A stretch of 64,000 bases of DNA from Brachycybe producta (lineage: Eukaryota; Arthropoda; Diplopoda; Playtdesmida; Andrognathidae), in the NCBI GenBank assembly GCA_036925085.1, contig JAUPFP010000036.1, positions 992,001 to 1,056,000 of the forward strand. The letters are read 5' to 3'. The notes below the pieces were generated by a model. It did not search any database, was not told the origin of the DNA, and was given only the letters and a program-made list of their open reading frames with translations. A program made the translations under genes and the position numbers. Shown here piece after piece: positions 12,608-64,000 of the stretch. How positions within the stretch are numbered: the first letter of the stretch is position 1; each line of letters starts with the position of its first letter.

Positions 12608-15600
12608 TTAATAACTAGACTCGGAGTCTATCACTTCCTGTTTGAAAGGCTGAAGACTTTGTATTTTGTAAGGTTCCGTCGGTGATGGTATAGGCGTATC
12701 GGGATGTCCATTTTGGATGTGAGGATCTTGGTGCCCGTGGCCATTACTGAGGTGATCCTGTTGAGAACCTTGTTGTGAACCTTGGTGGTAATTCGGAGTT
12801 GCAACCGACATTGGATTCGAACACGAAGTTTCGGTAGGAGCTCCTAAATAGAAGAGAAAAGGAAAAACAAATTTAAATGACATTAAAACTCCCTGATTAT
12901 CAAGAAAGTGTTTAACAGAACTTTTCTTTTAGATAGTTTGCAGTAGTAGACCAACATTAAAATCATCATTGGTCAAACAAAAAATAAATTTAGACACGTT
13001 TTTCTCACAGTTTAAAAAAAAATTGAAAGTGTAATAGAAACTAGAAGAGTAAAAGAAGCTGAAGGTTTTTTTTTCATTTTGATATTAAATTATTTAATCT
13101 TCATTGTGTATATGAAAATGATTGAATAATTGACATCATTTCTAACTTCCGGAACTCTTCAATATTTTGTCTTTCAGGTACAAAATGAAGAGAAACGTAA
13201 ATGCATCTCAGAAACTAGAAGGGCAACTCAAACACTTTAGAATATTTTTATGTAGAGACGTTTCAAAATACGTTTTTAACTTTTTATGGGAGTTTGAAAA
13301 TCACTCAACTTTAAGCAGACGATATTCTTTTAAAAAAAATTTTGTCTATACAAAATTGATTTCGAAAGATATCAACATAATATTCTTAATTGATTGAGCT
13401 GCCCCTTTCAAGTTTCTCTTAATTTTGCTCCTGAAAAACAGAATAATCAGAGTTCAAAAATCAGCTGTTCACAAACAATCTCCATTTCAATTTTAAAAAT
13501 AACAAAATGAAAAGAAAAAAAACAACTTTCACTTATTCATTGACTCTCCTACTTTCTATTGCACTTTAAATCTACTGTATTCTTAAATAAGTCTTTCTCG
13601 AAAGCATGAAACAACAAATATTTTCTAATCTAAAAGAAAAGTCACTTTAAAAACACATTTTGAAGAATTGCTGGATATTATTTAAATAGAACAGATAAGA
13701 AGAAAAAAAACAATAGATTAAACAGACTACAAAAGTATTAAATAGTATTTTAAGAAAAACATAAAAACATAGTTCTAAATAACTACAAACTTCAAAGAGT
13801 AACTACAAAAGTTTTTTTTATTTCTACTAAAGTACTTTATTAAATGTGAATAAGGGGCGAATATTTGCTGAAAATTAATTTAGCAAAGCCAGCAAGTAGA
13901 AAAAACAATACGGGAATTTGTGGTGTAAAGCTAGCAACATTGCAGCAGCAAATTGCATGGCAAAATATACAAATACAAAATGAATGATGATGTGGAGACT
14001 TCATTAAAAAATGAAAATGCCTCCAAATATTCAATGTTAAAAACTAATAAATGCACAAAGCATCTGCGAGAAATATTGCACCATATTTAAATTGTTAAGT
14101 GAGAAAAGGAAAATGAAATTTTAAAGAAAAATGATGAACAACAAAAACAGTTTTGTTAAAGAAATGAGGGTAGAAAAAAGGAATAATAAGTAAATAAGCA
14201 AAGCATTTTTGTTCAATTCACCCCTTACCGCAGACTAGGCTAGGAATTGCGTAGTGTGGTCCGACCATACCTCCGAGGAGCATTTCCTGCAAAAGGTTGT
14301 CGATTTTTGCCATGCCAAACAATTTGGCAAACTGAATCTGCTCAATCATCTGCCAGGTGATGCTCTGTAACGCCGGAAGTGTTAGGAGTATCTCGCCGAA
14401 ACGTCCCCTCGAGTCGTACTGTCGGTCGTTGATGTAGTCTTCGAGAGAAAGCTGGACTTGGTAACGGAGCGACTTGATTTTACTTGGGTCACTCAGGCCA
14501 CGGGCTCCTGGGACATAAACAAATGTTCCTCACACATCGAGTCTCAAAAACAAATTTAAATAACTAGTACTAATTAAGGTTAGCTTGTGCCACCGGAAAT
14601 CACTGATCACTGTTACAGTCTAAAGATTTGTAAGTTTACTGAAACGACACCAACCGGGATCAAAAAAGACGATCGCTTTGAGGCACGCAAACTCCGTGTC
14701 ATCAATCTGGACTTCACGAAGCGGTTTAATCAATTCGTCCATAATTCTGCTTCCCATATTGCTGATCTCTATTTCGGCCGAATGCCTCGGAATCAGGTAA
14801 TCGTTTCCCAATAGAAGAATGTCCTTAAAGTGTAAGGACCTGCGAGCCAATCCCAGAAGCAGGTGTTCTCCTGCATGAGCTCGAAGTAATGCCACCTAAT
14901 TTAGCAAAACAAAAAACATATTAAAATGACTCATATGTCTCAAATTATTAGTTTTTTTTTAGTATGACATATCGAAGAATTTAAATAGAGACCGCAAGAA
15001 ATGAATACTTAATAAGAACTAATAATGGGTGCATTCGGAAACAAACAAAAAACGTTTCTTAATGTTGTAAATAATCTGGAAGGGTGATTTTGCAACCAGC
15101 TCATTTATAAGAAAACAAATTTCCAAATGTGCTTTTATATTTTTTCATTTTCTTTTCAAATATGAGCTCTAGAGAAAGCCTCATAATCTTCTAAAGAAAA
15201 CAAGTATGGTGGATTTGATGCTTGCTTTCTTAAGAAGGGTAATTGGAGCTAGCACACAGACGCCTTGCTCCAGGGCCATACACGAGCTGTTTTGGAGCTG
15301 GAGGCAAGAATAAAACTGTCTTATCATCAGGGCCATAACAAGGGCACGCAAGTTTCTAGTCCAAACTATTTGGCAGTGCCCCCCCACCCCTCATTGCTAT
15401 CGTTTCTGCTCATTGTAGACTGTATTTACAATTTAAACATCATGAACATTAAAAAAAAATTGTTTATAATGTTATATAATTTCAATTTGAAATAATATTT
15501 AATAATTAATTAGAAAATTGTGCAATATGAAGAGGATCTAGAAAGTGAATTTTTCAACAATTTTTAAATTATAAAATGTTTAAGGAATTTTATAAATTTT

Positions 15601-47065: not shown

Positions 47066-48876
47066 GTTTCTAATTGCTCACTATTTCAGAAAATTATGAA
47101 CAACAGATGCAAAAAAAAAAACCCAGATGATAGAAAAAAAAAAGGGATCTTTGATCTCCACTATATATTGTAAGTTCAATTGTAACAGCAAAGGTGCGCA
47201 TAAACAAAGTTAACATTGAAAAAAAAAACTACACTCGAATCGACCTTTGTCAATTCCTGGTTGTTGGTAATAGTTTAAGGGCAAGGTCATTAAAAAACCT
47301 TCACACATAAATGTGAAATTAATGCAAAGTCCAAAAGACTGAGGACAGCAGCCTTTGAAAAAAAAAGTTATGAATGAAGGATTACCTCCTCCACCACCAC
47401 CATCACCAACAACAACAAATACTATACAAACAGCATCATCATCACCATCAGGATATTAATTATCAAAGTGTTTATTGCACCTTTAGAATGTCTAGAAAAA
47501 TCTTTGGATTTTGTACTAAACTTTGATAGTTATCATCATCGATGATGGTTTTACTCATGAGCTGGTTGTGTGAGTAACATCAGAACCGTTTAAAGTCTCT
47601 TCATGAAAGAACTATCATGGAGTCCTTTCACCTTCAAATCATTAAAAACAAAATGAATTTTTTTTTACCTGTGATATAATAACTTAATAAGTATGAATAT
47701 CGAATATAGTAGGAGTGGCATAAATATATTTTTTATTTTTATCTCATCTTCAATTCTTCATTATTTGTTAAACATCAACTATGGACCCATGTGTACATAA
47801 ATGTGAATGTCTGGAAAAATGGAAATAAGTAGGACTTCCAACAAAATCACATAAAAAATATTGATGCTGGTGGTGGTGGTTGGTGATAACGATAAACTGT
47901 TCTTGGAAATCAACCACCTTTTTTTTTAAGAGTGACATATTCGTATGTTTTTGTGACAAGTGTGAGAAAAGATCAAGAAAAAAAAAGGATGGGCCCTATA
48001 TCATAGCAAACAGAAGTCTTTCAAATAAAAGTTGGAAAAAAAAAGACTGACCAGTTAATAACATCAGATAATGTCAGGTTAATTCATTTTATCATATCTG
48101 AAGTAGGCCTATTTGTAAATGACAATAAATCCAAATTAAAACGCAAAAAAAAAAAACCAAAAGCGGACTGGAAGAAAAAACGGTTTACTCTAATGAGTAA
48201 GACAGAATTCCACCCAAAATTTCACTTGGTTCTGTTTTCATATGCTCCTAGCTTGGTTCTTTCAAAAAAAATTTCAAAATTTTTAATATTTAATTTACGT
48301 TATCAACTTATGACCACATTTTAAAAAAATGTGCTAAGTACTTGCTAATTATGCCCTTGATCGCAAGAACCCTGAAATGATTGCAAATAAATAATGGAAT
48401 TCGAAAATCGAGATTTTCGCATTTTGGAGGCTTCATAAAATATTCCAAAGTAAACTTTTAACTATACATTATTTCATTTTATTATTCAAATGGCAAAATA
48501 ACTAATTAATAACTTAATTACTAATGAGCAATGAACAAATGATAAAACGACTGAAAACAAATAGAAAATTTTAACAGAAAAGGAAGACAGTTTTAAATAC
48601 AAGATATAATTTGCAGCAGAACTTTGCAGCTGTGAAAATGATCATATGGGATGAAGTAGCAGAAGAGTGTTAATTGCCAATCGAATATTAGAATTGAGAA
48701 TATTAAAAAAAAAATGACTCGAGATTCTACTTTCGAACACTCAATTTGAAAAAGATCATTTCAGAATTATTTTCCTTCAGAAATATCATTATTAATTACA
48801 AACCATTTTGTTGTATAAATGTACATAAGATAAAGGTGAAAAAGAAAAGGCTTCCTCTACGTAAGAATAACATTTC

Positions 48877-51800
48877 TTACGTTAACCTTTTCTTCTGTGG
48901 TGAAAATAAATGTGCCTGCAAACAAAATAATTCAAATGGAAGAGAATTGAGTCGATGCAAAAATGAATGATGGAACGATAAGTAGCAGCAAATGGAAAAG
49001 GGAAAAACAAAAGAAAATTTACCTTTTGCCACTTTTCCATAAGCCGATCATATTCTACTTGATAAAAAGCAAAAACTTCTTTACAATCTTGACGAGCCGG
49101 ATGTTCCGGTGGATTGTAAACTTCACAATTGCTCTTGATTAACATCATGTCATCGTGAAACTCGGAAACATCCTTATAAACGCACATCTGTATTAAAAAA
49201 AACAATTCTTTACAATAGAGACTACAGGTCCCATGAGGCCTAGAAACCATATTAAACAGACGAAGCCCACAAATCACATCAAACTTATGAATCCCATAAG
49301 GGCCATAAGCCCTACGAAGCTCACTGGGCCTATGAGGCCCATAAGTCCATGCGTTATTTCATGAAATCAGCAGCCCAAGCCGGCCCACAAGCATAAAGTA
49401 GGTTTCTACTTTACAAATCATCAATGCGATTTTTTTACTTCGATCGCATTACAATATATTAACTTTTACTTAAACTCATGTATGTTGGAATAGAAAATAT
49501 GATGATTATTTAAATTAAAATTAAAAAAATTCTGATTGATTAAATAAACATTTTTTCAATAAAATAAGATGAGGAGGTTCGAATAAACCTTCTCGACCTT
49601 TTATGAACATACGCGCATACATATTACATACCATGATATATTATTAATAAGGCCAAAACTTTCATATAAATAAAAATTCAAACAGTGAAAGTTATCTTGA
49701 AAAACTGCGCATTTTATGCAAGTAGAAAATATATATATTACAGATAGAAAAAACATAATTAATACAGTATACTAAAACAATTTATAGTTAGAATTATCAG
49801 AAGCATTCATCATCATCCTTTTCTGCACCTTTTCCCACAATAAGCAGGGTTGGCCTTACGGGTTTGATCTCTCCACTCCTTTCACATGCCCCATATCCCT
49901 TTTACCACCCTGTTACAGGCTTGTTTGAGCCTTCTTCTACGACTTTTATCAGAAAACCCATTAAAAACCATTTGTAGAATTATTTTCGTCCAAAAAAAAA
50001 AAACGTTATTCTTCTAAATAATTAACTGAAATTGATGCAAATTTCCAAACAATTATGTAATTTGCGAATTTCTTATTTTCAGTTATTTTATATTATTCCC
50101 GCAAGTTACTATTAGCATAAAAATCCAATAAAAAATATCAGCTCTGTGACACAAATTAGTTTTGATTGAAAACAATTTCAGCTATCATTTATGATATAAA
50201 TATACCAATAGTTAGAATAAATGTATAATAACATGACAACCAGTTAAACCTTGTAATTACGAAAGCATCACCTGCATTCAATAACTTACTTCCAGCTTTT
50301 TCTTTATCGTTGAAAAATCCATTGGATTTTTCACAACTTCGTAATACCCAGGAGCCTCTTCTGCGGCCACTATAGCAGCACACACATACAAAACAACGAA
50401 CAAATGGTTAAGAATAGCACAAAAAAGGTTTTCTTTCAAAGACTTGCTTCACATTTAGACATTTTTGTTTACTAATCGATACCTGGCTGAAGAAACCAAT
50501 GCGCTGCACTCGGTTCTCCTTTCATTCGACCAACACCACGGAACTTCATAACACGAAGCAGCAAACTGGATTTTAACAAAATCGCAAATAACATCGACAA
50601 AAAAATATTTATAAGCAAAAGTTAATCATACGCAGTTGCGCCTCTCGACCAGCCATGAAGATGTGGTACAATAGATGGAAGGTCATCCGAGACAACGACA
50701 TCAGAAGGATGTTTTTTCCTCTTTTTTGTACGTACCGGATTGAAGCTCGGCTGTGACGATTCGTTTTCTACAAGTTGAGGTTAAAGATTACGACACGAGT
50801 CGTGAAAAATTCAGATTAAAAATTTCACCTCCGTGTAAAGCTGCCACTTTGCTCTCTACTGAATCGAAATCATCGGTAGATCCGATAATTTCCAACATTT
50901 CCGAACCTCCTTCGATACCGGTAATTTCACAAACACCCTAAAAGCACATAATAAAAACATCACGTAGCCTTTTTTTTCCTTCTCTAAATGCTACACTTGT
51001 TAAAACCTGTTGATTGATAAATGTCGAAGGAATTCTCTGATCAACAGACAGCCCATCGTGATCTTGTGGACCATAATACAATTCGTTAGCATCTCGTTTC
51101 AACGAATTCGTTTTTCCGACTGTAGAATCGCTCACCATAAAAACACTTGAACCTATTCATAAGACGACAATCTCTTCTTAAGTCACTGCATTTGCAATTG
51201 TGTCAGGAGCGGACTGGAAGATAAAACGGCCCAGGAAAAATTATTTCTACAGTTGAGGAGAAACTTAAAGTGTTAGGAAATTATAAAATTAGCTAAATCA
51301 CTTAATAGCATTTTCATGTTGATATCTTTCAAAATAAACTTTCTAAATTCTATGACAAAAATTAAACAATAAATCGTCTGCTTAAACTTGGGTCATTTTC
51401 AACCTCACATAAAATCGTATTCTGAAAAATATCAACATGAAATCATTGAGCTGATTAAGCTACCTCTTTTAGTTTCTAAAACACATTCAAGTTTCGCTTC
51501 TTTTTGTATCTGAATTACAGAATAATCCAGAGTTCATGAAGCACTTTATACTTTAAAACCACCTTAAGTAATTTAGCTACCCTTCTAGTTCTATAACACT
51601 TTCATTGCATCTTAATTTTACTCCTAAGACAAAATAATCTAAGTTCAAGGGGTGTTATTATTAGAATCCCACCCTTTTTAAACTTGTACCGCGTTTCATC
51701 ATAAAATATGCCATATAATGAAAAAAATTCCAGCCATATTTAAATTAAGCGGCTGATCCGGGGGGGGGGGGGAGATGTCCGATTGCCTACTAGGCCAGTC

Positions 51801-54800
51801 CGCCCCTGCATTGTGCACGAAATAAGTTCAACAAACCAGACTGTGTATCTAAAGTATTGCTTGGTTTCTGTATTGTTTCGAAAGCGACATCGGGCTCTCG
51901 AACGACACTTTCCATTTCCTCTGAAACAACCTCGATAGATTCCAAACCCACATCGTTTTGCTGACAGATTTCGTATCCCACTCCGTCGCTGAGTGCATTA
52001 TCGAAACATTCTACCACAACTTCATTCGTTATGAGATCAGTGTCATCGGTCGTCACAACCGTCTCTTCAATAACAGCTGTCAGACTTTCGTCAGTGAAAT
52101 GAATTTCATCACAAGCGCCAATCTCTGGAGCTTCGTTTTCTATAATTAACTGCTTTATCGCTGTTTCTTTCAATGTTTTGCATTCCTCGACCTCATCGGT
52201 ACTTGGAACAACCACAACGACGTCAGTCTTAGGCGATACGTTTGGCTTCGCGCGGTCGTCGCGTTTCACGGGAGACAAACTCTTAGTTGCAGACAGCGCC
52301 TTTTTACGTCTACTCGCAACGTCACCTTTACTATATGTTGCACCTCGGTAGAGGTATGTTCTACCGGGTTGCTGCATAACAGATTCTTTTACACTAATGC
52401 TTTCGTTTTTATCCACTTTGGATTCACTCAATTTAATGCCGTCACGCTTTTTATTGCTGCTGCTCCGTCCAGCGAGAAGTTCTCGCCGCAATGCGCTAAC
52501 ATTGTCCTCAAGTTTAACGAAACATTCGTTAGTCTTTGGCGACTGCTCCTGCTTCACATCGGCTGACTTTCTTTCTAAAGAAACATCGTTGTTTTTCTTT
52601 TCAACTGTAACTACACAATGATATAATAGGATATATAATAAAAATGAATTAAGTTATTTAAAATTAAGAAAAATCAAACCGGAAGTTTCACACTCGACGT
52701 TTTCGGACGACGAATGGCGTGGGCACGGTCCAAAAAGTCCAGTTTTCGGATCCAATTCGCCACTTTCACATTTCTGCAACTAGAATAAAATGGTTTTAAA
52801 GTGTAGACAACCCCTCACATTCGAACTGTAGTCATTCTATTTTTCACAAGCAAAATTAAGATAAAGCGCTTTAGAAACTAGAAGAGCTCTAAGGTTATTT
52901 CATGTTGATATCTTTTAAAATAAGCATTTTATGAGAACTTAAAAAATAATGCAACTGTTTAAGCAGACTATATATTTCAATTTTTGTCTAAAGAAAGTTT
53001 ATTTTAAAAGATATAAACATGGAAAATATTATTTTGTTATTCTGCAACACAAAATAACTAAAGTTCGAAAATCAGTCTTTCTTAAAATCAAATAAAAAGA
53101 GAAAATTGAAATCAAAGATAATTTAAATAATCGTTATTTGTACTTTAAATTTCGTTTTTTCCATCACCGATTCAGTCGACGCTTCAATAACCGCGTGTGT
53201 AGAGACATTTACAGTTTCTTTGTTTTGCAAAGTCTGAACCACGCTCGATATAGCTATTAAAAAAACAACAAAGAAAACCGTCAAAAGCTTACAATAGATG
53301 CCGTTTAACACGAAAACGGATAACACGAAATATTTGTTCAGTCCCAGACCCTTAGAAAAATGGATAATTCAAAAATATTGGTAAACTTGAGTCAATTCTA
53401 TACGAGCACTTCTTGCAGTTCATTCAACTTAACTAGGACCACTTCCCAAATGTTGGCGAGCGACTTGACTGGTCAGTGTATATCACATGCCGACCTCGTT
53501 TTGGTCTCTAAAAGACACATCTTTTGAGTCTTTCTTGCCTTTTCCGCCCCATATTACGAAATTCTCGTAAGATAAACACATTATAAAATACAGTTTAAAC
53601 AATTTATCTTTTAACACGAACAAATATTCTTGTCCCTTCGTGTTAAACAGTTTCCAGTGTAATACGAAATGCACGATTTTTAGAAAAAATCAAGTTACTT
53701 AAAGACGAATCTGTTGAATTCTCTTCCAATTTCAATTCTTCTACACATGCAGACGATAAATCGGTCAGTTGAGCTGGTTCGATGCTACCATCAGGTAAGA
53801 TTCCAGCCGCCTGAAGCAAATCGGCTAAAACTGTGCTCTTCTTAGCAAATTGAGTTATTGTCTTATCAGACAAACCGTCTGATGAACTGGCTAAAGTAAC
53901 GGTCGAAGCAATTCCACCTCTTCCTTTCGGAATGAGAATCGCATGCCGAGAACCACCATCCTAAAATTGAAACACACCTCAACGATAAACAAGCGTTGTA
54001 ACAACGAACTCAAATATCGCAGATGACTGACTCTGACAGAAGTAAGTGATGTTGGTTTTAACATCGTCTGAGAACCAGATAGAGCAGAAGCCGAGATCGT
54101 AAATGCATTTCCGGATTGAGACTGTTGTAAAACATGAGCCTTTTGAACAACAATAACATTGGATTTTCCTCCTATAAAAATCGATTTGTTGAAATTGTTA
54201 TTCCAACTCTTAAAAGTTTTACAAAATAAATATCAAAAAACAAGAAATACCTGCAGAAGATATCGACATTCCAGGAGGAACTTTAAGCAACGTTGTTTGT
54301 TTTCCATTCGGTCCAACGGTAACAAGTGCAGATGCATTTTTCGTAACTGATAAAGATGTGGGATTCAAAAGCCTTCCCGCCGAAGCCTGTGTACCGAGAA
54401 CATTCACCAGACGCGTTCCGGACTGATTTCCTTCGTCAAAACCATTAAACATATTTTTTAAGTTTTCCGCAGATATAATTAAAGGTAAATTAATCATCCG
54501 AATTGCCTTCGGCACACCTGTAACTGCTCCCGTTTTGGTGACGACAACAATAGGAGGCATCCCACCACCTGCAGAAGATTTTGGCACAAACTTTGAGCCA
54601 GAAGAAACAGGAACCGTCTGAGCTATAATCTTTAAACCTAAATTTGTCCAAATTAAAACTGTTTTTATAAACAACCAAATGTTGTTAAAATGAACGAGAA
54701 CAATTCAAAACAACACCGATTATTCTACAGTTTTAAGAAGCAGCTCCCAGAAAAGTAAATGAAACACGCTCAATCACTTAAGAGTATTTTCATGTTGATA

Positions 54801-57663
54801 TCTTTCAAAATAAACTTTTTATATAACAAAAATACAAACTTCAAACTTAAATAAAAAAAATTTTTTGAAAGATATCAACGTGAAAATAGCCCGCAAGTGA
54901 TTGTGCAATCTATCTAGTTTCTGAAACACATTCAAGTTTCTCTTTATTTTTCAGCCTGAAAAACAGACCAATCACAGTTCGAAAGGCGTTTACACTTTAA
55001 AACCACTTTTAAGTCATTCAGTTACTTTTCTAGTTTCTAACACTTTCAATTTCTCTTTAGTGTTGCTCATCTGTAATGCAGAATTAACTGCAAAATCAGC
55101 TGTCCTTCCTCAGCAGACATTAGATTGTAAGTTTGGAAACAGACTATTCAATCAACTAAATATTTTGATTTGAGGAAACAATAACCAAAATATCGTATGT
55201 GAAGCATGTTGTAATAGACAATATCTGTTAGAAAAATACCTGAAGTGGTGGTCGTGGTTTGAGGCGCCGTCGGTGAACTGGATCCAACGGAAGTCACCGA
55301 TCCAGATGGAAGGACGAGCGTCCCGGGACTCGAAGACGAGATTGGAGTGATCAACGAAGACACTTTTCCTAAAGATTGCGTAACACTCGCCATCGTTCCA
55401 GTCGTAGTCACTGTCTTAACGATCGGGACAGTAAGAGAACGTTGTAAAATGCTTGACTGTAAGTTAGAACACGACGTCGACACCAGAATAACCTGCTTTA
55501 CAATTGACGAGAAAGAAAAGAAAAGTGATAAAAGTTTCTTTAGAAAATGATCACTAAAACTTTAAACCTTTTGAGTAGGAATTGTACTTGACGATGAACT
55601 TGTAGCTAATTTCGGAGTGCTGCTGGTCAATGTAAACTGGACGGGTGTTCCACCGATCGGAATGCTAACTGTTTTTGAAGTTGCTGACGTAGATAACATC
55701 GTAGACGGAGCAATGGTATTCTAAAACACACAAAAAAACTATGATTGACAAACGAGTAAAAAAACTGCTACAAAGTTCCCACCAAATATTAATTTTCATT
55801 TCCAGCAGAAAGTTTTCTAGAATTATTTTGGTGAGAAACTTAATAGTGTTTTAGAAACTAGAAGGGGCATTTTAATAATGATATATTTTAAAATAAGCTA
55901 ATTTTATGTTAGTTTGACATACTTCTTTTAATTTTTGTCGGTAAAACGTTTTTTGTTGAAAGATATCATTATGAAATACTCTTAAGTGACTGGGTAACCT
56001 GTTCTAGTTTGTAACACAATTTAAAATTCTGAAAAATTGAATAACTAGAGTTCAATTGAGATGTGCTTGCACTTTAAAACCAGCAATTGTACTAGTTTCT
56101 AACACAGTTTCAGTTTCTTCTTAGTGCAGGTCTTTTTTGTTTTTACATAAATTCTCTACGTTTCTAAGGAAATTTCAAAATTTCTGGAAATTAACGTCTT
56201 TTCACTGCCATGATCAAGGATAAATGTTACCTTAGTGACTTGTGGCGTGGCGATTCCACAAGAAGTAGTGAAATTCACTTTATGTTGCGGAAGCGACAAA
56301 TCGGAAGAAGAACGCTTCCTTTTACGAGATTTCACATCGGTCTGAACTCCATCGTGATTCGTAGCTGCTAAAGTAAAACATTTGATATTGACGTAAACAA
56401 AACAGAATCTTTCAGATCTTTGGATCTAAATAACTTACATTTAACTTGAAATGAAACGCCACTCGGCAATACCAGGACGTTCGAAGGCGAAGAAACAATC
56501 GGCATCTGTTGATTCTGATCAACGACTGGAATATCCAAAAGGGAATCCGTTTCGTTTGAAATATGTGTAGCATTTGGCGACATCTTGGCGGCACTAACTG
56601 TAGTTTTTCCACCACCACATTTGATTGAATTTTCAACAGCCAAAAATTGATTTTCACCTAAAACAAGACTCCAAATTGACACAACTACAAAGAAAACACA
56701 GTAAATATTAATCATTACTCTTGATAACGGGTGCAGTTGATGATGGAGAAGGCAAAGATGCATTGTGCTGAGCAGCTAGAAGTGCCACATTGTTAGCGAT
56801 GTTTGTAAAAGCGGTCTGAGGAACAAGCCGTGGCATCAGAGGAACAAGACGTCGTCCTTCGATGGCCCATTCCGAATACGTACTGCAACCACCGACACTA
56901 CGAGAAACAAGTAAGATCTAGAAGATTAACTAAAAAAAGACTTTCTTTCCAGACTATTACAGATCTGCTATAGTTGCTAGCTTCTCGTCATTGACGGCAC
57001 GGCGTATTTCGGCACGATGTCGTTCGGTCGAAATTCTGTTTACAAATAAAAACCGGTTATCGAAATTCTTATTTTTTTGTTGTTTTACTCTTATTTTAAA
57101 ACGCAGAAACTTCACAAAACGAGAAAAATGTAATAAAATATGATTGGAAAATTCAAAAATCTGCCATAAAAATACAAAAATTTGAATTCAAAACATAAAA
57201 GCACTGAAACTGTTTAACACAATAACAGATACAACAAAAATTCGGATAACATCAAATATATATTTGGTACGGTTCCTTAGAATAAAACAAAACTTCTTTT
57301 AACACAAAAAAAAATATTCAGGTCCTTATCCATTTCGTGAAATATATGAAATATCCGTGAATTTATGCGTTTTAAACACTGACTTGGTTACAAACATTTT
57401 CTACTAACCCTAGAATTGAGCATAATTCTTGTAAAACTTTCTTCTTGTCCTTGCTGAGTTCACCTTGAGCTCTAAATGCTGAAACCATCGACGCATAAGC
57501 CTCCAATTCTAAAGAAAAAACGTAAAGAAGTTCAGTTTTTCTTATCTTCATATTTAGCTAAAATGGAGCGAAATCAATCTGAAATGACTTTACCTAACCG
57601 TCTGAGTATTCGTTTGCATTCGTCTTTAGTTAAATCTAGTAACATTGGCCACATGAGAGACAT
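48877..57663 (-). CDS. EMSY: EMSY-like chromatin repressor with a C-terminal bromodomain
   Basis: EMSY is a nuclear ENT-domain protein linked to BRCA2 and to SIN3/KDM5-type repressor complexes in vertebrates. Exons, minus strand: 57594-57663, 57409-57508, 56961-57035, 56719-56897, 56439-56657, 56231-56367, 55568-55720, 55240-55495, 54251-54637, 54032-54171, 53699-53960, 53144-53253, 52680-52779, 51837-52610, 51007-51152, 50829-50937, 50632-50767, 50483-50565, 50290-50369, 49023-49187, 48877-48915. All join in phase: 1239 residues. The ENT domain (about 5-100) has DLTKDECKRILRRLE and STERHRAEIRRAVNDEKL; EWAIEGRRLVPLMPRLVPQ follows. Family motifs VLVLPSG, RKRKRSSSD, SNVIVVQK and LDPKTGLFG recur in order. 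A bromodomain occupies about 1108-1227 with PGYYEVVKNPMDFSTI and CEVYNPPEH; Asn1197 is the expected acetyl-lysine contact. A 12-residue tail (last exon) ends the protein. Human EMSY lacks a bromodomain. The middle exons are confident; the last three rest on splice logic. Confidence 0.88.
49225..49395. repeat. Degenerate GGCCTCATG-type repeat, site 2
   Basis: CCCATGAGGCCTAGAAACC, AAGGGCCATAAGCCCTACG and GGGCCTATGAGGCCCATAAG resemble the complement of 45125-45255. It lies in the EMSY intron just upstream (in gene sense) of the exon 49023-49187. Confidence 0.55.
51204..51808. mobile_element. hAT-type non-autonomous element carrying a fold-back MITE
   Basis: The ends CAGGAGCGGACTGG and CCAGTCCGCCCCTG are inverted repeats (12 of 14). 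Flanks AATTGTGT and CATTGTGC share ATTGTG, consistent with an eroded 8-bp duplication as made by hAT transposases. From about 51245 to 51570 the interior is a copy of the fold-back family, and a G run lies at 51759-51771. The element sits in the EMSY intron 51153-51836. A fragment with the same GCGGACTGGAAG end occurs near 48164. Confidence 0.8.
52793..53090. mobile_element. Fold-back MITE copy close to an EMSY splice acceptor
   Basis: TGGTTTTAAAGTGTAGACAA, GCTTTAGAAACTAGAAGAGC and TTCATGTTGATATC on the left; TTAAAAGATATAAACATGG and ACTAAAGTTCGAAAATCAG on the right. Its left edge is 14 bp from the end of EMSY exon 52680-52779, so it probably supplies or displaces the branch-point region. Confidence 0.8.
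54715..55075. mobile_element. Fold-back MITE copy in EMSY intron
   Basis: TTTTCATGTTGATATCTTTC with AAAATAAAC is mirrored by GAAAGATATCAACGTGAAAA and CTATCTAGTTTCTGAAACAC; the end is GGCGTTTACACTTTAAAACC. An extra arm fragment (TTACTTTTCTAGTTTCTAAC) follows. Confidence 0.8.
55805..56135. mobile_element. Fold-back MITE copy in EMSY intron
   Basis: GTTTTAGAAACTAGAAGGGG and ATAATGATATATTTTAAAAT on the left; GTTGAAAGATATCATTATGA and ACCTGTTCTAGTTTGTAACA on the right, then an extra arm. Confidence 0.75.
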
Positions 57664-57936
57664 TCTTCTTCTAAAAAGAGAAAAAAATCGAAACAAAAAG
57701 CAATGAACTAAAAAAAATGTTTACAAATAAGAATTCAGAATCGGTGATGATTTTTCGTTCAACGTTTCAACATTTTTTAGAAGCAAATACAAAACTTACA
57801 TTCAATTAAATTCTTAACTTGTTGCTATTCTTAAGAATTCATTCATATTCGTCAGTTTAAATTACAAAAATCGTGCGAAAGAAACAACAAAATAAAGAAT
57901 TTAGAAGAGAAGAAGAGACATCAAGTAAACGAAACC

Positions 57937-57949
57937 CGCCATTTTACAA
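57937..57949 (-). promoter_or_regulatory. YY1-like motif near the probable EMSY promoter
   Basis: The minus strand reads TGTAAAATGGCGG. It matches the AAnATGGCGGC consensus bound by YY1 and its relatives, which often sits just downstream of transcription starts. It is about 275 bp upstream of the EMSY start codon. Inferred from motif only. Confidence 0.4.
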
Positions 57950-58013
57950 GACAGAAAAAAAAAGGCGAGCAGCTATGAAGCATCGATCAAAGGACGAGAG
58001 TAATGATATTTAT

Positions 58014-58028
58014 GACACCAGGGGGCGA
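58014..58028 (+). promoter_or_regulatory. CTCF-like motif upstream of EMSY
   Basis: GACACCAGGGGGCGA matches the core CCASYAGRKGGCR of bilaterian CTCF at nearly every position. It is between EMSY and NOP58, about 350 bp upstream of the EMSY start. Motif evidence only. Confidence 0.4.
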
Positions 58029-59320
58029 AAACAATTGCTACGAATTATGTAACGAATACGATACAAGATAAATCTATAGAGGTAAAGCAACTCCATATTA
58101 GAAACATAAACCAATAATGAGTGAATAATCGTCTGCTTTTTGATGCTAGAAGGAAGACGCCTTGCCAAGGAGCACAGCACAAGGGTGAGTCTCGTACGAT
58201 ATGGCAAGCCATTTTAAAGGAGAAGACATTATTGATGAATCTCGTACGCCACGTAATTGTATAGTAACTGAAGTACTAAGTACAGTTTCCGCTAGCTATT
58301 GGCAACACTCAAGTTTTGGCACGAAATGTTCCATAGGAAAAAAGCTCTTTTTGAGTTGCCTCCATACGGAAACTTAGAGGTAACTCAACTTTCTATGGAG
58401 CATTTTTTATAATCCTATCCTAAGTAATAGTCTATAAGATTATACCAATATGTATATATATATACCCGCTTCACTGTAAGAAGGCTATGACGTCAGTGGG
58501 GGTTGACGTAAAATTTACAATTGTGTCATCCAGTTTGACAGATAATACGTTTTCAACAGTTTAAACAAAAGGATTATATTTTTGCATTCTGTCATAATGA
58601 CAACCACTCTGACGCCACGTTTTCTAAGAATTTTTTTAATCCAAAAATTAAAGCAAAAACCTAGGCAGGGGGAAAATAGGCAATTACAAATTATTGAATT
58701 AACAAATCTACCATCCTTTGCAACTTTGAAAAGCAAAAATTGATCATGTATACCTTAAGAATTGCATTCTTGTAGCTCGTACAAATAGTACTTTCTTGTG
58801 TCTTTTGGGTTACAGTTTAATACAAATGTGAAGCTAAACTAGTCAACTTTTACATTAAACTTAGCATCATTAGTTTAGCACTAACTTTGACTTAGCAATC
58901 ATTAATATTACCTTTGCTTTTCTTCCCCATCCTCCAACCTTGAAAAATTAAACTTAAAAATTCTTCAAGTTGCTTCTAAAATAAAGTTTATTAGGAAATT
59001 TACCGATGAGCCACTACATGTGCGCATTTAATACGTTCTTTGGGCAAATGATGTTTCGAATTGCTGCTTGATCGTTAAAACCTCAAAATAACTAAATAGA
59101 ATAACATTCTAAATATATACTAAATAAAAAATGTCCTAATGCTACTACTGTATTAACGAAAAACAACCACGCTTTAATCATAAAAGCGGTAAATTTTAAA
59201 TTCATTAAAAAAAAATACACGATGACATCGGATTTTCCGATCAAACTTAAATTTCATTAAAAAAAATGAAAACATATTGAAATTATGATTCAATAAACAA
59301 AAGAAATACGAAATTGAAAA

Positions 59321-62300
59321 TTAGTCGTCGTCCCCCTCTTCCTCCTTTGATTTTGACTTCTTTTTCTTCTTCTTCTTCGTGGGCGTTTCTTCTACTTCAA
59401 CAGCTTGTTCTAAATAAAAGATTAAAAGTGAATTTCATGCCAAAAACGTTTTAAATTTAAAAATACCCTCGGTTTTAATCGATTTCTTCCTCTTCTTTTT
59501 CTTTGCCGATGACGATGTTCCTTCTAAGTTTTAGAAAAATAATTCATTATTGTAATATTATAAGAAAACGAGAACAATTAATGAAAAAAATTGTCTACCT
59601 TGAGGGTCATCTTCTGCCTTTACTTCTGGTTCAGACTTCGGCTCCACTTTGAACTTCTTCTGAGGTTTCGCTTCGGGCGTTTCAACTTCTTCGATCCGTC
59701 TTTTACTAGCAGTTGGCAATGTGGAATCCGCAGAAATAGGATACTGCCTAATTTCACTACAAAAGCAAAAAATACATTTAAAAAAGTCTCAAATAATAAA
59801 CTAGTTCTATTGTTTCACAACTTACGTTTTACTTTCATATCTTTCCCACTTTGCAGCCTGTTTTCCAGTGCCACTAATTCTCCTCAACTATAAAATTGAA
59901 AACGTACTTAAGTTGTTTAAAGAACAACTGATTTGCAAACTGGTCTATTCTAGAAGTGGGGGCCGCCGCCGACGAATTTCGGCCGCGCTACACAAACATT
60001 GAACTGTGCGAACGCCATGCCACAGCGGCTAATGATTTTCTCTTCCACCACCGCCGCCGATTTCATTTGGCCGTCGGCTGCCACCTCTAGTTTATTGTGC
60101 ATCCAAAAGAGCAACAATAAGGAGAAATCGAAAGTACTTAAGAAACTAGAATGGGTAGATCAAACATTTAATAGTACTTTAAATGCTGCTATCTTTCAAA
60201 ATAAATATTTCATTGAACAAAAACTTAAAAAATATCATCATCTTTAAGTTAGATAATTTCCAAACTGACATGAAAAGCCTATCTTAAGGTACCCTTCTAG
60301 TTTATAAAACAATTTCAAGTTTCTCTTAACTTCATTCCTCAAAAAAAAAAAGATTAACCAGAATTTGACAAAATAACTTACTCCACCCTCCTCGAGTTCT
60401 TTGAGTTTTATTTCCAACCTTGCTCGATGTTCGACACCAAGTTGGTGCGTCGTGTCTTCGCCGAGAGCGTCCACACGACTAGCGAGAGCTGTTTTTGCAG
60501 CCAACATACGAGACATCTAAAAAAAAGAGACATTTTAATATCGAGTAACAGCATAAATACCGTTAAAAATTATATTAAAAAAAAGTTTGCTCCCTCAGAA
60601 GTAGTGACGTAAAATATTATAATCAGCCAAAATTTCATGTTTAAACAGTAATTTATGCATCATTGGGAAGAAGAAAAAAACACAACGTCAAAATCTCTCT
60701 AATACTTGCCTTTCCTTTTAGTTTAGCGCTACTTTGTCCAATGAGCTGTGCATGATAGATAAGACCGTATTTCGGAGTGTCATGTTTGGTTTTTAAAGCA
60801 CGAAACAACGCCTTCTCGGCTCCTAGAATTTGAACGGTCGAAGCAGGATGTTTGGCCAAGCTAAGCAGCGATCCTTAAAACAAACGAATAAATGTTAATA
60901 ATTGACCGACTTCAGATGAAAAACGTAACAGAATAATTAACCTGCATGCGAAATCAATCGAGCTCCGACAAGTTCTCCGACCAAAACCGTTACATTCGGA
61001 GCAATGGCCATCATACGGTTTTGCAGATAATCATACAACTGAGTTCGATAGTTGGTCATCTCGATCACCTTCGCCAAAAAAGAAATGTAAAAAGTTCGAG
61101 AAATCCGTCTCTTCACACTTCAAATAAGCTAGAAACTCAACCTGATCACAAAGAAAAAGGATGTTTTCGATATCTTCTTCAGAAATTTCTGTTCCCATCG
61201 AAATCTCGGCAGCTTCTTTCACCCTCTCTTCAAGTTCTGCATCTAAGAGATCCGAGAAGTCGAACGTCGACGAGTTTTCTCTAGTACCTTAAAAAAGTAC
61301 AAAACAAACGAGAAAATCAGCCAAAAGTTTGTTTTAATCATTTAAGTAACGAAATAACGAAACCTAATGCTTTCACAGTCTTGACGAATGTAAAATTGTC
61401 CGTCACTATTTTACTCAGCTCTGGAAAATGCCAACCGTACCATTCTCGAGCACGCATTACGTAATTGTTTAACTCTTTATCCAGATCATCCAACAGTGCT
61501 ATAAATTTTTTAACAAAGTTTAAAAAATTAAAATATGCAGTGAAAATCGTTTAACACTAAATATATGTTCAATCCGTTCCCTAAGAAAAACGAAAAACCT
61601 TTTCATCCTTAAACAAAACATAAATTAGTGACCGGTTTCTCGAATCTGCATGCTTTCTGCACGAATAAACTTAGAACAAATGCAGTAAGTCCTTGACTTA
61701 ATATATTCGAGTTACGCGGATTCGTAGATACCCGCTGGCAGCACTTCCCCCTACACTAGCCACGCCACCTATGAATTGCATCTGCAACCTTAATAAAAAA
61801 AATACACAGGAATTAAGCGCATTTTAATTACGCGAATATCTTCGGAATTAACTGCGTAAATTGAGGACTTAATGTTGCGTCATTTTTTTAAAAAAATATT
61901 CGGGTCCCTTACATTAAAACTAAAACTTAAAAGCTTATTTTCAAAAACAGTGTCAAAGAAGTCTTATGAAACTTTGATCAGCCTTCCAGTTTCCAAACAA
62001 ATATTGAAATTCTTTAAAAAAAAAAAGTATCTTCACAACCGCGTTCACATTGTTGCAATGTCGAAAAAGGAAAACGGAAATACAACCATTTTCATATTAA
62101 CTTACAAACTGCTTGTACGATCATCGTGTCCACTTTATCCGGGCTAAATTTCAGCTTATATCGTGAAAGACTATATAAAAAACAGAAACGAAAACATCGC
62201 GAGTTCAAAAAGACTGATACCAATCCTAAATCGACAATAAAACTAGAAGTGAAATTAGGCCTCAGAAGTAGTGACGAAACAGTTTTGAAACTCATTCAAT

Positions 62301-63729
62301 ATAATTATGAATATAAACAGATCATCATTGGCCAAAAAATACCCAGTAAATTGTATAAAAACTATAGAAATAACACCAAGACCTGTGAGCGAGTCCCAAA
62401 GACATGGCCGAGAGTTCTCGCTGTGGTAATCCCGTAATAAGACTGTCCATCTGAGATCGGATACATCTCATCAGTTCTTGAACGGACGAGTTCGAAATGC
62501 AAGACAATTTTAGTTTATCCTACAAAGAAGACAAACCAAAACGACAAAAGACATTGAAAATTCGAATATGAATGTTTACAATGTACTCGAAAGAACCTTT
62601 ATTGCACTTCCTAACTTGGAGTCGGCGACGGCCAACTGTTCGTGAGCTTCTTTCACGACTATCTTCTGCAACATCTTTTTAAGAGTTTTCGACATTTTCC
62701 CTTCGATTGCAGCAGTTGCGGCTAAAAAAACAAAAACCAACCAGAAAAATGAGCTTACGAGAACGATCGAAAGGTTCATTTGTCTCGCAATTACTGTACC
62801 TTCTAAAGCTACCGTTGTATCTTTAAACTTTTGAAAATACTTTAATTTAACGCTTTAATGTGAAAAAAACAACAACGAATTATTGACGAAATTCGATTGA
62901 AAATTGATTTTAGTTTGTGATTTACATTTTGCTGGCTGTTTCGGGAGTTTCAAAATCTTGAAACAGATTTTCCGTCTGTTGTAATTTCTTTTCATTAAGA
63001 AGCTGTAATTAGAAACAATAAATATAAAGAAAATGGCTAAAATTCTGCAATGTAAAGTAAGAATTGCAATATATCTGTAAGAAACAACAATAAACCAACA
63101 ACAATTCCAAGAGAAATGCCTTTGGATTAGTAACCACGATGCTCATTTGGCCTCTATGAACAAAAAAACCTTTCGCCTCAATTGAGTGCCTTCTGCCTTA
63201 GAATTGAATAGCGTGGAGACTTAAGCTCTGGTCAAGTATACGCTGCTTACAGTAGACCAATTATTTACGTCAAATGGTCCCAAATGAATGGATTTATAAT
63301 TGTCTGGTCTTTTTCTCTAATAACAATGTACCCCTTCCTCGTAATTTACATAATTAGTAAGAAATAACCATATTAACCAGTAAAACATTCTCTGCGTGTA
63401 CTTGATTAGAGTATAATTGGCTTGTAATCAAAAGAAAACCAAACTTAAACTTTCTAAAATTGATAAAAACAACTACAATAAAACTACACACAATCTGCGT
63501 TTTCGAAAAACCGTGTAAGAGCATTCATTACCTTCAAACACCCATCTTAAAAAGCAGTTTAATAGGGACCTTAGTTACAGTGGCGGTCTACGGGAGCCAC
63601 ACCACGTGGTGACCACATTTTTAGGCTTAAATCTCGAAATAAGATACGAGCGAAATAAAACAACCTAAGAAATGCAATACTAACCTTAAATATAGCAAAT
63701 CCTGCTGGTGTTTCGAATAAAACCAACAT
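59321..63729 (-). CDS. NOP58: NOP58, core protein of box C/D snoRNPs
   Basis: NOP58 forms, with NOP56, fibrillarin and 15.5K/SNU13, the box C/D particle that 2'-O-methylates rRNA in the nucleolus. Exons, minus strand: 63685-63729, 62926-63002, 62800-62852, 62597-62721, 62383-62519, 62106-62170, 61364-61498, 61142-61287, 60942-61068, 60710-60873, 60382-60516, 59826-59887, 59599-59756, 59467-59523, 59321-59409. All join in phase to 524 residues (human 529). The N-terminal domain opens [20 protein letters not shown]. The coiled-coil/NOSIC part includes [30 protein letters not shown] and [13 protein letters not shown]. The Nop domain has [38 protein letters not shown] and TPKYGLIYH. The tail is the usual Lys/Glu/Asp-rich KKE/D type, ending GDDD. 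NOP56 is excluded by the start and tail. Intron 10 uses a GC donor, and introns 5 and 10 carry snoRNAs. Confidence 0.97.
59957..60090. other. GC- and CpG-rich patch in a NOP58 intron
   Basis: Within a 30% GC region this stretch is rich in GCCGCC and CpG (for example GGGGGCCGCCGCCGACGAAT and GCCGTCGGCTGCCACC). It lies in the intron between exons 59826-59887 and 60382-60516. No conserved protein or RNA signature was recognised. It could be a recent insertion or an internal regulatory element. Confidence 0.4.
60125..60345. mobile_element. Fold-back MITE copy in a NOP58 intron
   Basis: TTAAGAAACTAGAATGGGTA and GCTATCTTTCAAAATAAA on the left, GTACCCTTCTAGTTTATAAA and TTTCAAGTTTCTCTTAAC on the right. 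A shortened palindrome between the GC-rich patch and the next NOP58 exon. Confidence 0.75.
60590..60669 (-). ncRNA. Box C/D snoRNA, SNORD70-like, copy 2 (NOP58 intron 10)
   Basis: On the minus strand a CUUCCC/GGGAGC terminal stem (five pairs) encloses AUGAUGC, a one-base variant of box C, and a CUGA box D at 60595-60598. Immediately upstream of box D is ACGUCACUACUU, complementary to the 18S rRNA segment containing GGUAGUGACG over about 11-12 bases. By the box D+5 rule the target is the A of GGUAG. A possible D' box (CUGA) lies inside. The guide is nearly the same as in the intron 5 snoRNA, whereas the rest differs. It sits within the 193-nt intron between exons 60382-60516 and 60710-60873. 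Confidence 0.78.
60710..60710 (-). other. NOP58: GC donor splice site in NOP58
   Basis: The exon ends GGAAAG and the intron begins GCAAGT. AAG|GCAAGT is the standard GC-AG donor context. No GT lies nearby that would preserve the frame to the next exon ([11 protein letters not shown]). The intron is also the one that hosts a snoRNA. Confidence 0.75.
62258..62334 (-). ncRNA. Box C/D snoRNA, SNORD70-like, copy 1 (NOP58 intron 5)
   Basis: On the minus strand a GGCC/GGCC terminal stem encloses a perfect box C (AUGAUGA, 62322-62328) and box D (CUGA, 62262-62265). The 14 bases before box D, UUUCGUCACUACUU, pair with the conserved 18S rRNA sequence AGGUAGUGACGAAA with a single G-U pair. The D+5 position points to the A in GGUAG. 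Human SNORD70 (HBII-234) lies in a NOP58 intron and directs 18S Am512, in that sequence as I recall it, so this looks orthologous. Total length is about 77 nt, normal for the class. The host intron is 62171-62382. Confidence 0.88.
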
Positions 63730-64000
63730 TTTTACAGTTGGAATTACGATTAAACTAAAAAAAATTTGAAGAACTTTTCTCCCGACACAATCACATTGAA
63801 GACATCAACGGACAACGAATGGAGGAGAAACGAAGAACAGGGATGTGGGCCCCGCACGGTTAAAAGTTATCATTTGTCTACTTCCTCCTTCATTTCCGTT
63901 ATGGAGGGATGGTGCACAATGAAATAAAGAATAAGAATAAAAGTAAAAATATCCTAACCTATTTAACAGTCCCCCACAATAAACAAAGAAAAAATAATTC
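63730..64000. other. NOP58 5' UTR and promoter side
   Basis: AT-rich sequence upstream of the NOP58 start codon. The first exon is short (15 codons). I see no TATA box in a convincing position and no further gene before the right edge of the window. Confidence 0.5.

Follow-up and report, generated by a model that had tools for sequence, protein, structure and literature searches.

EMSY has been described in a complex with SIN3B, PHF12, MORF4L1, GATAD1 and KDM5A (PMC8143632). It is also found with KDM5B at the repressed miR-31 promoter, where it is recruited by ETS-1, in a report that also refers to its amplification in breast and ovarian cancers (PMC3988886). The Drosophila protein CG15356, which belongs to the same family by name and is compared here by description, interacts mainly with the 220 isoform of SIN3, in a SIN3 complex with KDM5/LID; the term bromodomain is absent from that report (PMC6242963). 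Bromodomain proteins appear next to EMSY-like proteins in more distant organisms. In Arabidopsis, the EMSY-like reader EML1/2 and the bromodomain reader GTE4 work as a pair at genes carrying acetylation and H3K4me3, in a commentary that leaves SIN3/KDM5 unmentioned (PMC11749275). Bdf3 occurs together with an ENT protein in the trypanosome HAT2 complex, an acetyltransferase complex in T. brucei (PMC9236257), and proximity labelling placed an ENT-domain protein in the neighbourhood of the bromodomain factor BDF5 of Leishmania (PMC9279504). In all of these the partners are separate proteins, unlike the single protein proposed here (PMC11749275, PMC9236257 and PMC9279504). The existence of such pairs in plants and kinetoplastids makes an EMSY-bromodomain fusion biologically sensible. 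A further bromodomain protein of possible relevance is BRD10, formerly KIAA2026, renamed after a bromodomain match (PMC12807706).

The gene analyzed here lies on the minus strand of a 64,000-nt stretch of the Brachycybe producta genome (the window). It starts with an initiation codon at 57663 in the exon-chain model and is about 8.8 kb long, the bromodomain part forming one end of it. Its features are as follows.

57594..57663, minus strand: exon 1, initiation codon and beginning of the ENT domain (tblastn with the human EMSY start; exon chain)
57409..57508, minus strand: exon 2, ENT domain (tblastn, exon chain, Pfam)
56961..57035, minus strand: exon 3, ENT domain, ISTERHRAEIRRAVNDEKL (tblastn, exon chain, Pfam, PDB)
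56719..56897, minus strand: exon 4, with RRLVPLMPRLVPQTAF (alignment to PDB 2fmm)
53168..56657, minus strand: exons 5-12, Ser/Thr/Val-rich EMSY middle (dynamic-programming exon chain)
56657-56439, 56364-56231, 55720-55568 and 55492-55240, minus strand: exons 5-8, exact ends model-based
54637-54251, 54171-54032, 53960-53699 and 53253-53168, minus strand: exons 9-12, exact ends model-based
52680..52773, minus strand: LDPKTGLFG exon, acceptor 52773 or 52779 (LDPxTGLF shared with the human peptide; exon chain)
51837..52604, minus strand: long linker exon (codon score 103.8 bits in the frame used)
51204..51808, minus strand: transposon-like insertion of 605 nt in the critical intron (inverted ends, flanks, shuffles)
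51007..51152, minus strand: linker exon 3' of the critical intron (codon score 14.8 bits in the frame used, the remaining five frames negative)
50829..50937, minus strand: linker exon, beginning GVCEITGIEGGSEMLEIIG (exon chain)
50632..50767, minus strand: exon with the basic stretch RTKKRKK and the beginning of the first bromodomain helix (exon chain)
50483..50565, minus strand: bromodomain exon, divergent first helix to HWFLQP (Pfam, PDB search)
50290..50369, minus strand: bromodomain exon, ZA loop, YYEVVKNPMDF (Pfam, PDB search)
49023..49187, minus strand: bromodomain exon, NCEVYN with the presumed acetyl-lysine-contact Asn (Pfam, PDB search)
48877..48915, minus strand: last exon, 12 residues and stop (exon chain; looser gene-model runs picked another last exon)
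48478..48483, minus strand: AATAAA, 394 nt past the bromodomain stop, the first AATAAA/ATTAAA downstream of 52435 on the sense strand

The identity of the gene as an EMSY homologue, proposed in an earlier sequence-only reading, is firm. The spliced product matches the ENT domain profile PF03735 with 85.5 bits (E=2.6e-24, cut-off 28.5), and the ENT-bearing product retrieved just three PDB entries, 2fmm, 1utu and 1uz3, all named EMSY, with E-values from 3.6e-54 to 4.2e-40. The likeness to human EMSY in 2fmm takes the form of an ungapped alignment of 129 residues that spans the ENT domain and downstream residues. The stretch RRLVPLMPRLVPQTAF in exon 4, following the ENT domain, is identical in the human protein; we take it to be the HP1-binding stretch. 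A tblastn search with the human N-terminus gave three matching pieces between 57663 and 56735. The LDPKTGLF peptide lies at 52755-52732, in the C-terminal half of the homologue, and the LDPxTGLF motif is shared with human EMSY. The exon carrying it, given earlier as 52680-52779, exists as described except that its 5' end may be either 52779 or a second AG six bases further, at 52773. Within the EMSY middle, the frame of the exon starting at 53960 stays open beyond the modelled donor (53698-53643, minus strand) up to a stop at 53643, and an intron-retained short EMSY ending there is possible.

At the other end of the gene, the spliced bromodomain matched Pfam PF00439 with 78.1 bits (E=5e-22, cut-off 21.7). 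Comparison with PDB yielded 407 distinct sequences at E<=0.001; the best 60 of the 407 are all bromodomain proteins by name, the top single-domain chains among these 60 being BPTF and BRD2 at about 57 bits. The domain is thus, by its similarity, a clear bromodomain, yet it has no close copy among these best 60 of 407 matches, and none of the 60 is BRD10/KIAA2026 by name. The Asn of NCEVYN and the YY...PMD residues of the ZA loop line up with BRD4, TAF1 and PBRM1 in the PDB alignment, bearing out the earlier statement that the acetyl-lysine Asn (CEVYN) and the PMDF motif are intact; we assume that this Asn and the ZA-loop residues have their usual role in acetyl-lysine contact. The exon coordinates proposed for the domain also held, with AG acceptors, GT donors and compatible phases throughout. 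The description of the bromodomain as complete applies from the ZA loop onward. Its first helix (LLLRVMKFRGVGRMKGEPSAAHWF) is divergent: the Pfam match starts at position 13 of the 84 in the profile, leaving positions 1-12 without a match, and with a 74-residue N-terminal query the PDB matches start at residue 32 at least in the best 60 rows. In addition, HWF stands where a WPF-type shelf is expected. Homologues of the bromodomain and of the ENT domain were absent from a collection of prokaryote contigs, and ENT homologues from a collection of viral contigs, results that are uninformative on animals. One short bromodomain match on a viral contig was dismissed as chance; it falls in an ORF that looks integrase-like by eye.

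The two ends of the gene were connected by a dynamic-programming exon-chain search run at four exon penalties (-8, -10, -12 and -14), after a looser run had inserted many tiny exons and the penalty was raised. The codon model was trained on 1041 codons from a nuclear receptor gene, a NOP58-like gene and the upstream part of EMSY, leaving aside the LDP, linker and bromodomain exons. At the strictest penalty (-14) the search returned a 21-exon chain of 3678 nt, encoding 1225 residues plus stop, which stays in frame to 48877 and ends on the exons of the sequence-only reading, stop included. The chain at -12 is the same apart from the last exon. Both contain a direct junction between 51837 and 51152; at -10 and -8 the chain passes instead through an inserted element (51791 to 51213), with further exons added at -8. 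The earlier claim that the LDP exon is followed by in-phase exons leading into the bromodomain was right as to phase, with three more exons (52604-51837, 51152-51007 and 50937-50829) intervening. The long linker exon is clearly coding, its other frames scoring -191.1, -53.3 (forward) and, in one reverse frame, 60.6. The short exons 50937-50829, 50767-50632, 50565-50483 and 50369-50290 are left unclear by codon score alone, the last scoring 5.8 in the frame used versus 8.8 in a reverse frame. For these exons the argument comes from the domain match. Alignment of the linker to the human EMSY tail that follows LDPxTGLF showed no similarity, 269 of 300 shuffles scoring equally high. Termination of EMSY directly behind the LDP exon was rejected: the read-through stop is followed by an AATAAA after 196 nt, but this hexamer falls in the long linker exon, and splitting the gene at that intron lowers the score by 32.0 bits.

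One-gene and two-gene models were compared at 14 of the 20 introns. The two-gene model was worse by 6.2 to 44.4 bits at 13 of these, whereas at the critical intron, 51837-51152, it fell behind by just 2.3 bits. The corresponding figure at the presumed boundary between NOP58 and EMSY, where one split point was tried, was 1.2 bits. Over the four penalties, the two-gene model led at the two looser settings, by 3.2 and 0.3 bits, and trailed at the others, by 0.3 and 2.3 bits. Model scores alone thus fail to decide the 51837|51152 junction, which is the most serious finding against reading EMSY and the bromodomain as a single gene. The alternative would be two independent genes side by side. EMSY would then terminate within or at the inserted element, either with the stop at 51790 or by way of a small additional exon, and a second gene, for a small bromodomain protein, would begin at the AUG at 51138. 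In its favour, the best two-gene model splits exactly here at that small cost, and wins at the two looser penalties. Close neighbours are also conceivable at this locus, the modelled end of NOP58 lying about 1.7 kb before EMSY. Against this arrangement, every EMSY end picked by the two-gene models makes use of element sequence, whether the stop at 51790, which is inside the element, or the small terminal exons 51752-51745 (wholly in the element) and 51213-51183 (in the element with the start of the exon). Moreover, an ordinary in-phase acceptor lies 14 nt upstream of the AUG at 51138. At the critical junction the splice sites (donor 4.6, acceptor 5.1) fall in the middle of the range seen in this gene, donors along the chain scoring from -1.0 to 8.0 and acceptors from 1.3 to 10.3. 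No resemblance was seen between the linker exons flanking the gap (627 of 1000 shuffles).

The gap itself measures 684 nt, of which 430 nt resemble other places in the window. Most of it is occupied by the element at 51808-51204, whose ends, CAGGGGCGGACTGG and CAGGAGCGGACTGG, form 14-nt inverted repeats matching at 13 of 14 positions and whose 8-nt flanks, GCACAATG and ACACAATT, are alike at 6 of 8. The inverted ends are unlikely to be due to chance: 200 shuffled versions of the gap yielded no outer inverted ends of equal quality. The end motif, with 3 mismatches or fewer, is present at 5 places in the window, both ends included, versus 0.34 expected. For one end there is an additional 22-nt match at 48183-48162. 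The interior is an interspersed repeat with many copies across the window, where a second full copy with both ends was not found. The 8-nt flanks suggest a DNA transposon of what we take to be the hAT-like type. Removal of the element with one flank copy leaves 71 nt of gap. Thirteen of the 19 other introns of the gene fall between 61 and 113 nt, eleven of them measuring 61, 61, 63, 66, 69, 71, 74, 75, 75, 79 and 85 nt and two 107 and 113 nt; the remaining six range from 373 to 1102 nt. Read unspliced, the pre-insertion sequence would reach a stop after 13 residues, and by hand count only 44 nt would separate this in-frame stop from the next AUG. Such a spacing has the size of an intron, and independent genes would hardly be expected to lie so close together, which speaks against two such genes.

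Polyadenylation signals bear on the same question. No AATAAA or ATTAAA occurs between 51790 and 51138, which again argues against an independent EMSY end there, and none was found in the 1500 nt after the 51790 stop. Over the whole interval from 52435 to 48877 the sense strand has none, versus a shuffle mean of 8.5 (0 of 300 shuffles as low); the opposite strand of the same region has 18. Within 51834-50768 alone (1067 nt) the count is also 0, versus a mean of 2.3, but 28 of 300 shuffles were as low, and by itself this absence is weak. The entire EMSY gene is depleted of the hexamers (6 versus 18.6, 0 of 300 shuffles as low); no such depletion was seen in 48480-20000 (95 versus 98.1). As controls, the modelled NOP58 end has a hexamer at 143 nt, and in the HNF4-like nuclear receptor gene the first one comes only 1084 nt after the stop. 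Weaker variants, among them AGTAAA and TATAAA, are present in the gap. With these results added to the pre-insertion spacing, we consider two independent adjacent genes, with the ends just described, improbable.

A very short pre-insertion gap lacking polyadenylation signals, with an acceptor just before an AUG, would also fit an operon: EMSY and the bromodomain protein would share one primary transcript, which trans-splicing at the 51152 acceptor, located 14 nt ahead of the AUG at 51138, would cut in two. Operons of this kind occur in some invertebrates. This arrangement would require, however, that the frame be open across the junction by chance and that a mid-range, in-phase donor be present at 51836 nonetheless, and trans-splicing in this animal is no more than a possibility; we regard the operon as decidedly improbable. 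Even less weight is given to the production of two isoforms, a short EMSY ending at 51790 by virtue of the insertion and a long form including the bromodomain. The insertion would have stretched an intron of about 71 nt to 684 nt and brought in an in-frame stop about 45 nt past the exon end, as such a scheme would have it, but the only polyadenylation hexamers from 51790 to 51138 are the weaker variants. The intron-sized pre-insertion gap, the missing polyadenylation signals and the ordinary splice sites make a single gene likely. The earlier single-gene reading is supported on these three counts and left undecided by the model scores at the junction. Altogether, it appears highly probable that EMSY and the bromodomain belong to one gene.

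A single mRNA would then span both parts. The domain order, read along an open frame through all exons, is ENT domain, presumed HP1-binding stretch, Ser/Thr/Val-rich middle, LDPKTGLFG, a partly acidic linker and the bromodomain. The ENT domain and EMSY-specific parts would, like their human and fly counterparts, keep the protein in a SIN3-HDAC/KDM5 complex; the bromodomain, for its part, would bind acetylated histone tails at active promoters. Deacetylase and H3K4 demethylase might in this way be brought to, or held on, acetylated nucleosomes. That a SIN3/KDM5 repressor has an acetyl-lysine reader of its own is a reasonable inference, and we think it likely that one gene specifies an EMSY orthologue of about 1225 residues, from ENT to C-terminal bromodomain, working as just outlined. 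The same polypeptide would recognize a chromatin mark and also bring in enzymes that remove marks, suggesting that EMSY complexes may recognize acetylated promoters and then silence them.

The EMSY gene thus very probably extends into a module recognizing acetylated histones. Human EMSY, which is not known to end in a bromodomain, appears to lack such a module. The arrangement points to a possible bromodomain partner for the human protein, comparable to the GTE4-EML pair of plants and the Bdf3-ENT pair of trypanosomes. A more speculative view, which we consider doubtful, is that animals acquired the EMSY-bromodomain fusion long ago and that vertebrates split or lost it. If so, ENT proteins and bromodomain readers would make up one functional pair across eukaryotes, fused here and separate in plants and kinetoplastids, and human EMSY would be predicted to work still with a separate bromodomain partner, BRD10 being the first candidate. 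We found no report of an EMSY with its own bromodomain among the listed matches of the open-licence full-text literature, judged mostly from titles and abstracts, and no such fusion among those for CG1815, KIAA2026 and EML1/GTE4. Automated database entries for such an EMSY in other invertebrates may well exist.

Some features of the neighbourhood were recorded as well. Upstream of EMSY on the same strand lies the gene that we take to be NOP58, with a modelled extent of 63618-59321 (minus strand); its Nop domain scored 25.6 bits (cut-off 25.4), and NOP5NT, at 17.5 bits, stayed under the cut-off of 27. About 31 kb downstream of EMSY, a nuclear receptor gene with zf-C4 and ligand-binding domains, HNF4-like by eye, occupies 17838-12608 (minus strand), its 3' end at 12608 also being judged by eye. 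No tRNA genes were found. The CpG observed/expected ratio, calculated for bins of 500 nt, showed no clear sign of a promoter at the gap between 51837 and 51152. It lies between 0.77 and 1.53 in 29 of the 33 bins from 47500 to 64000, suggesting low CpG methylation in this animal. Finally, extended open frames composed of similar short peptide units run along both strands of the region 48-1472, a low-complexity or repeat sequence by eye.
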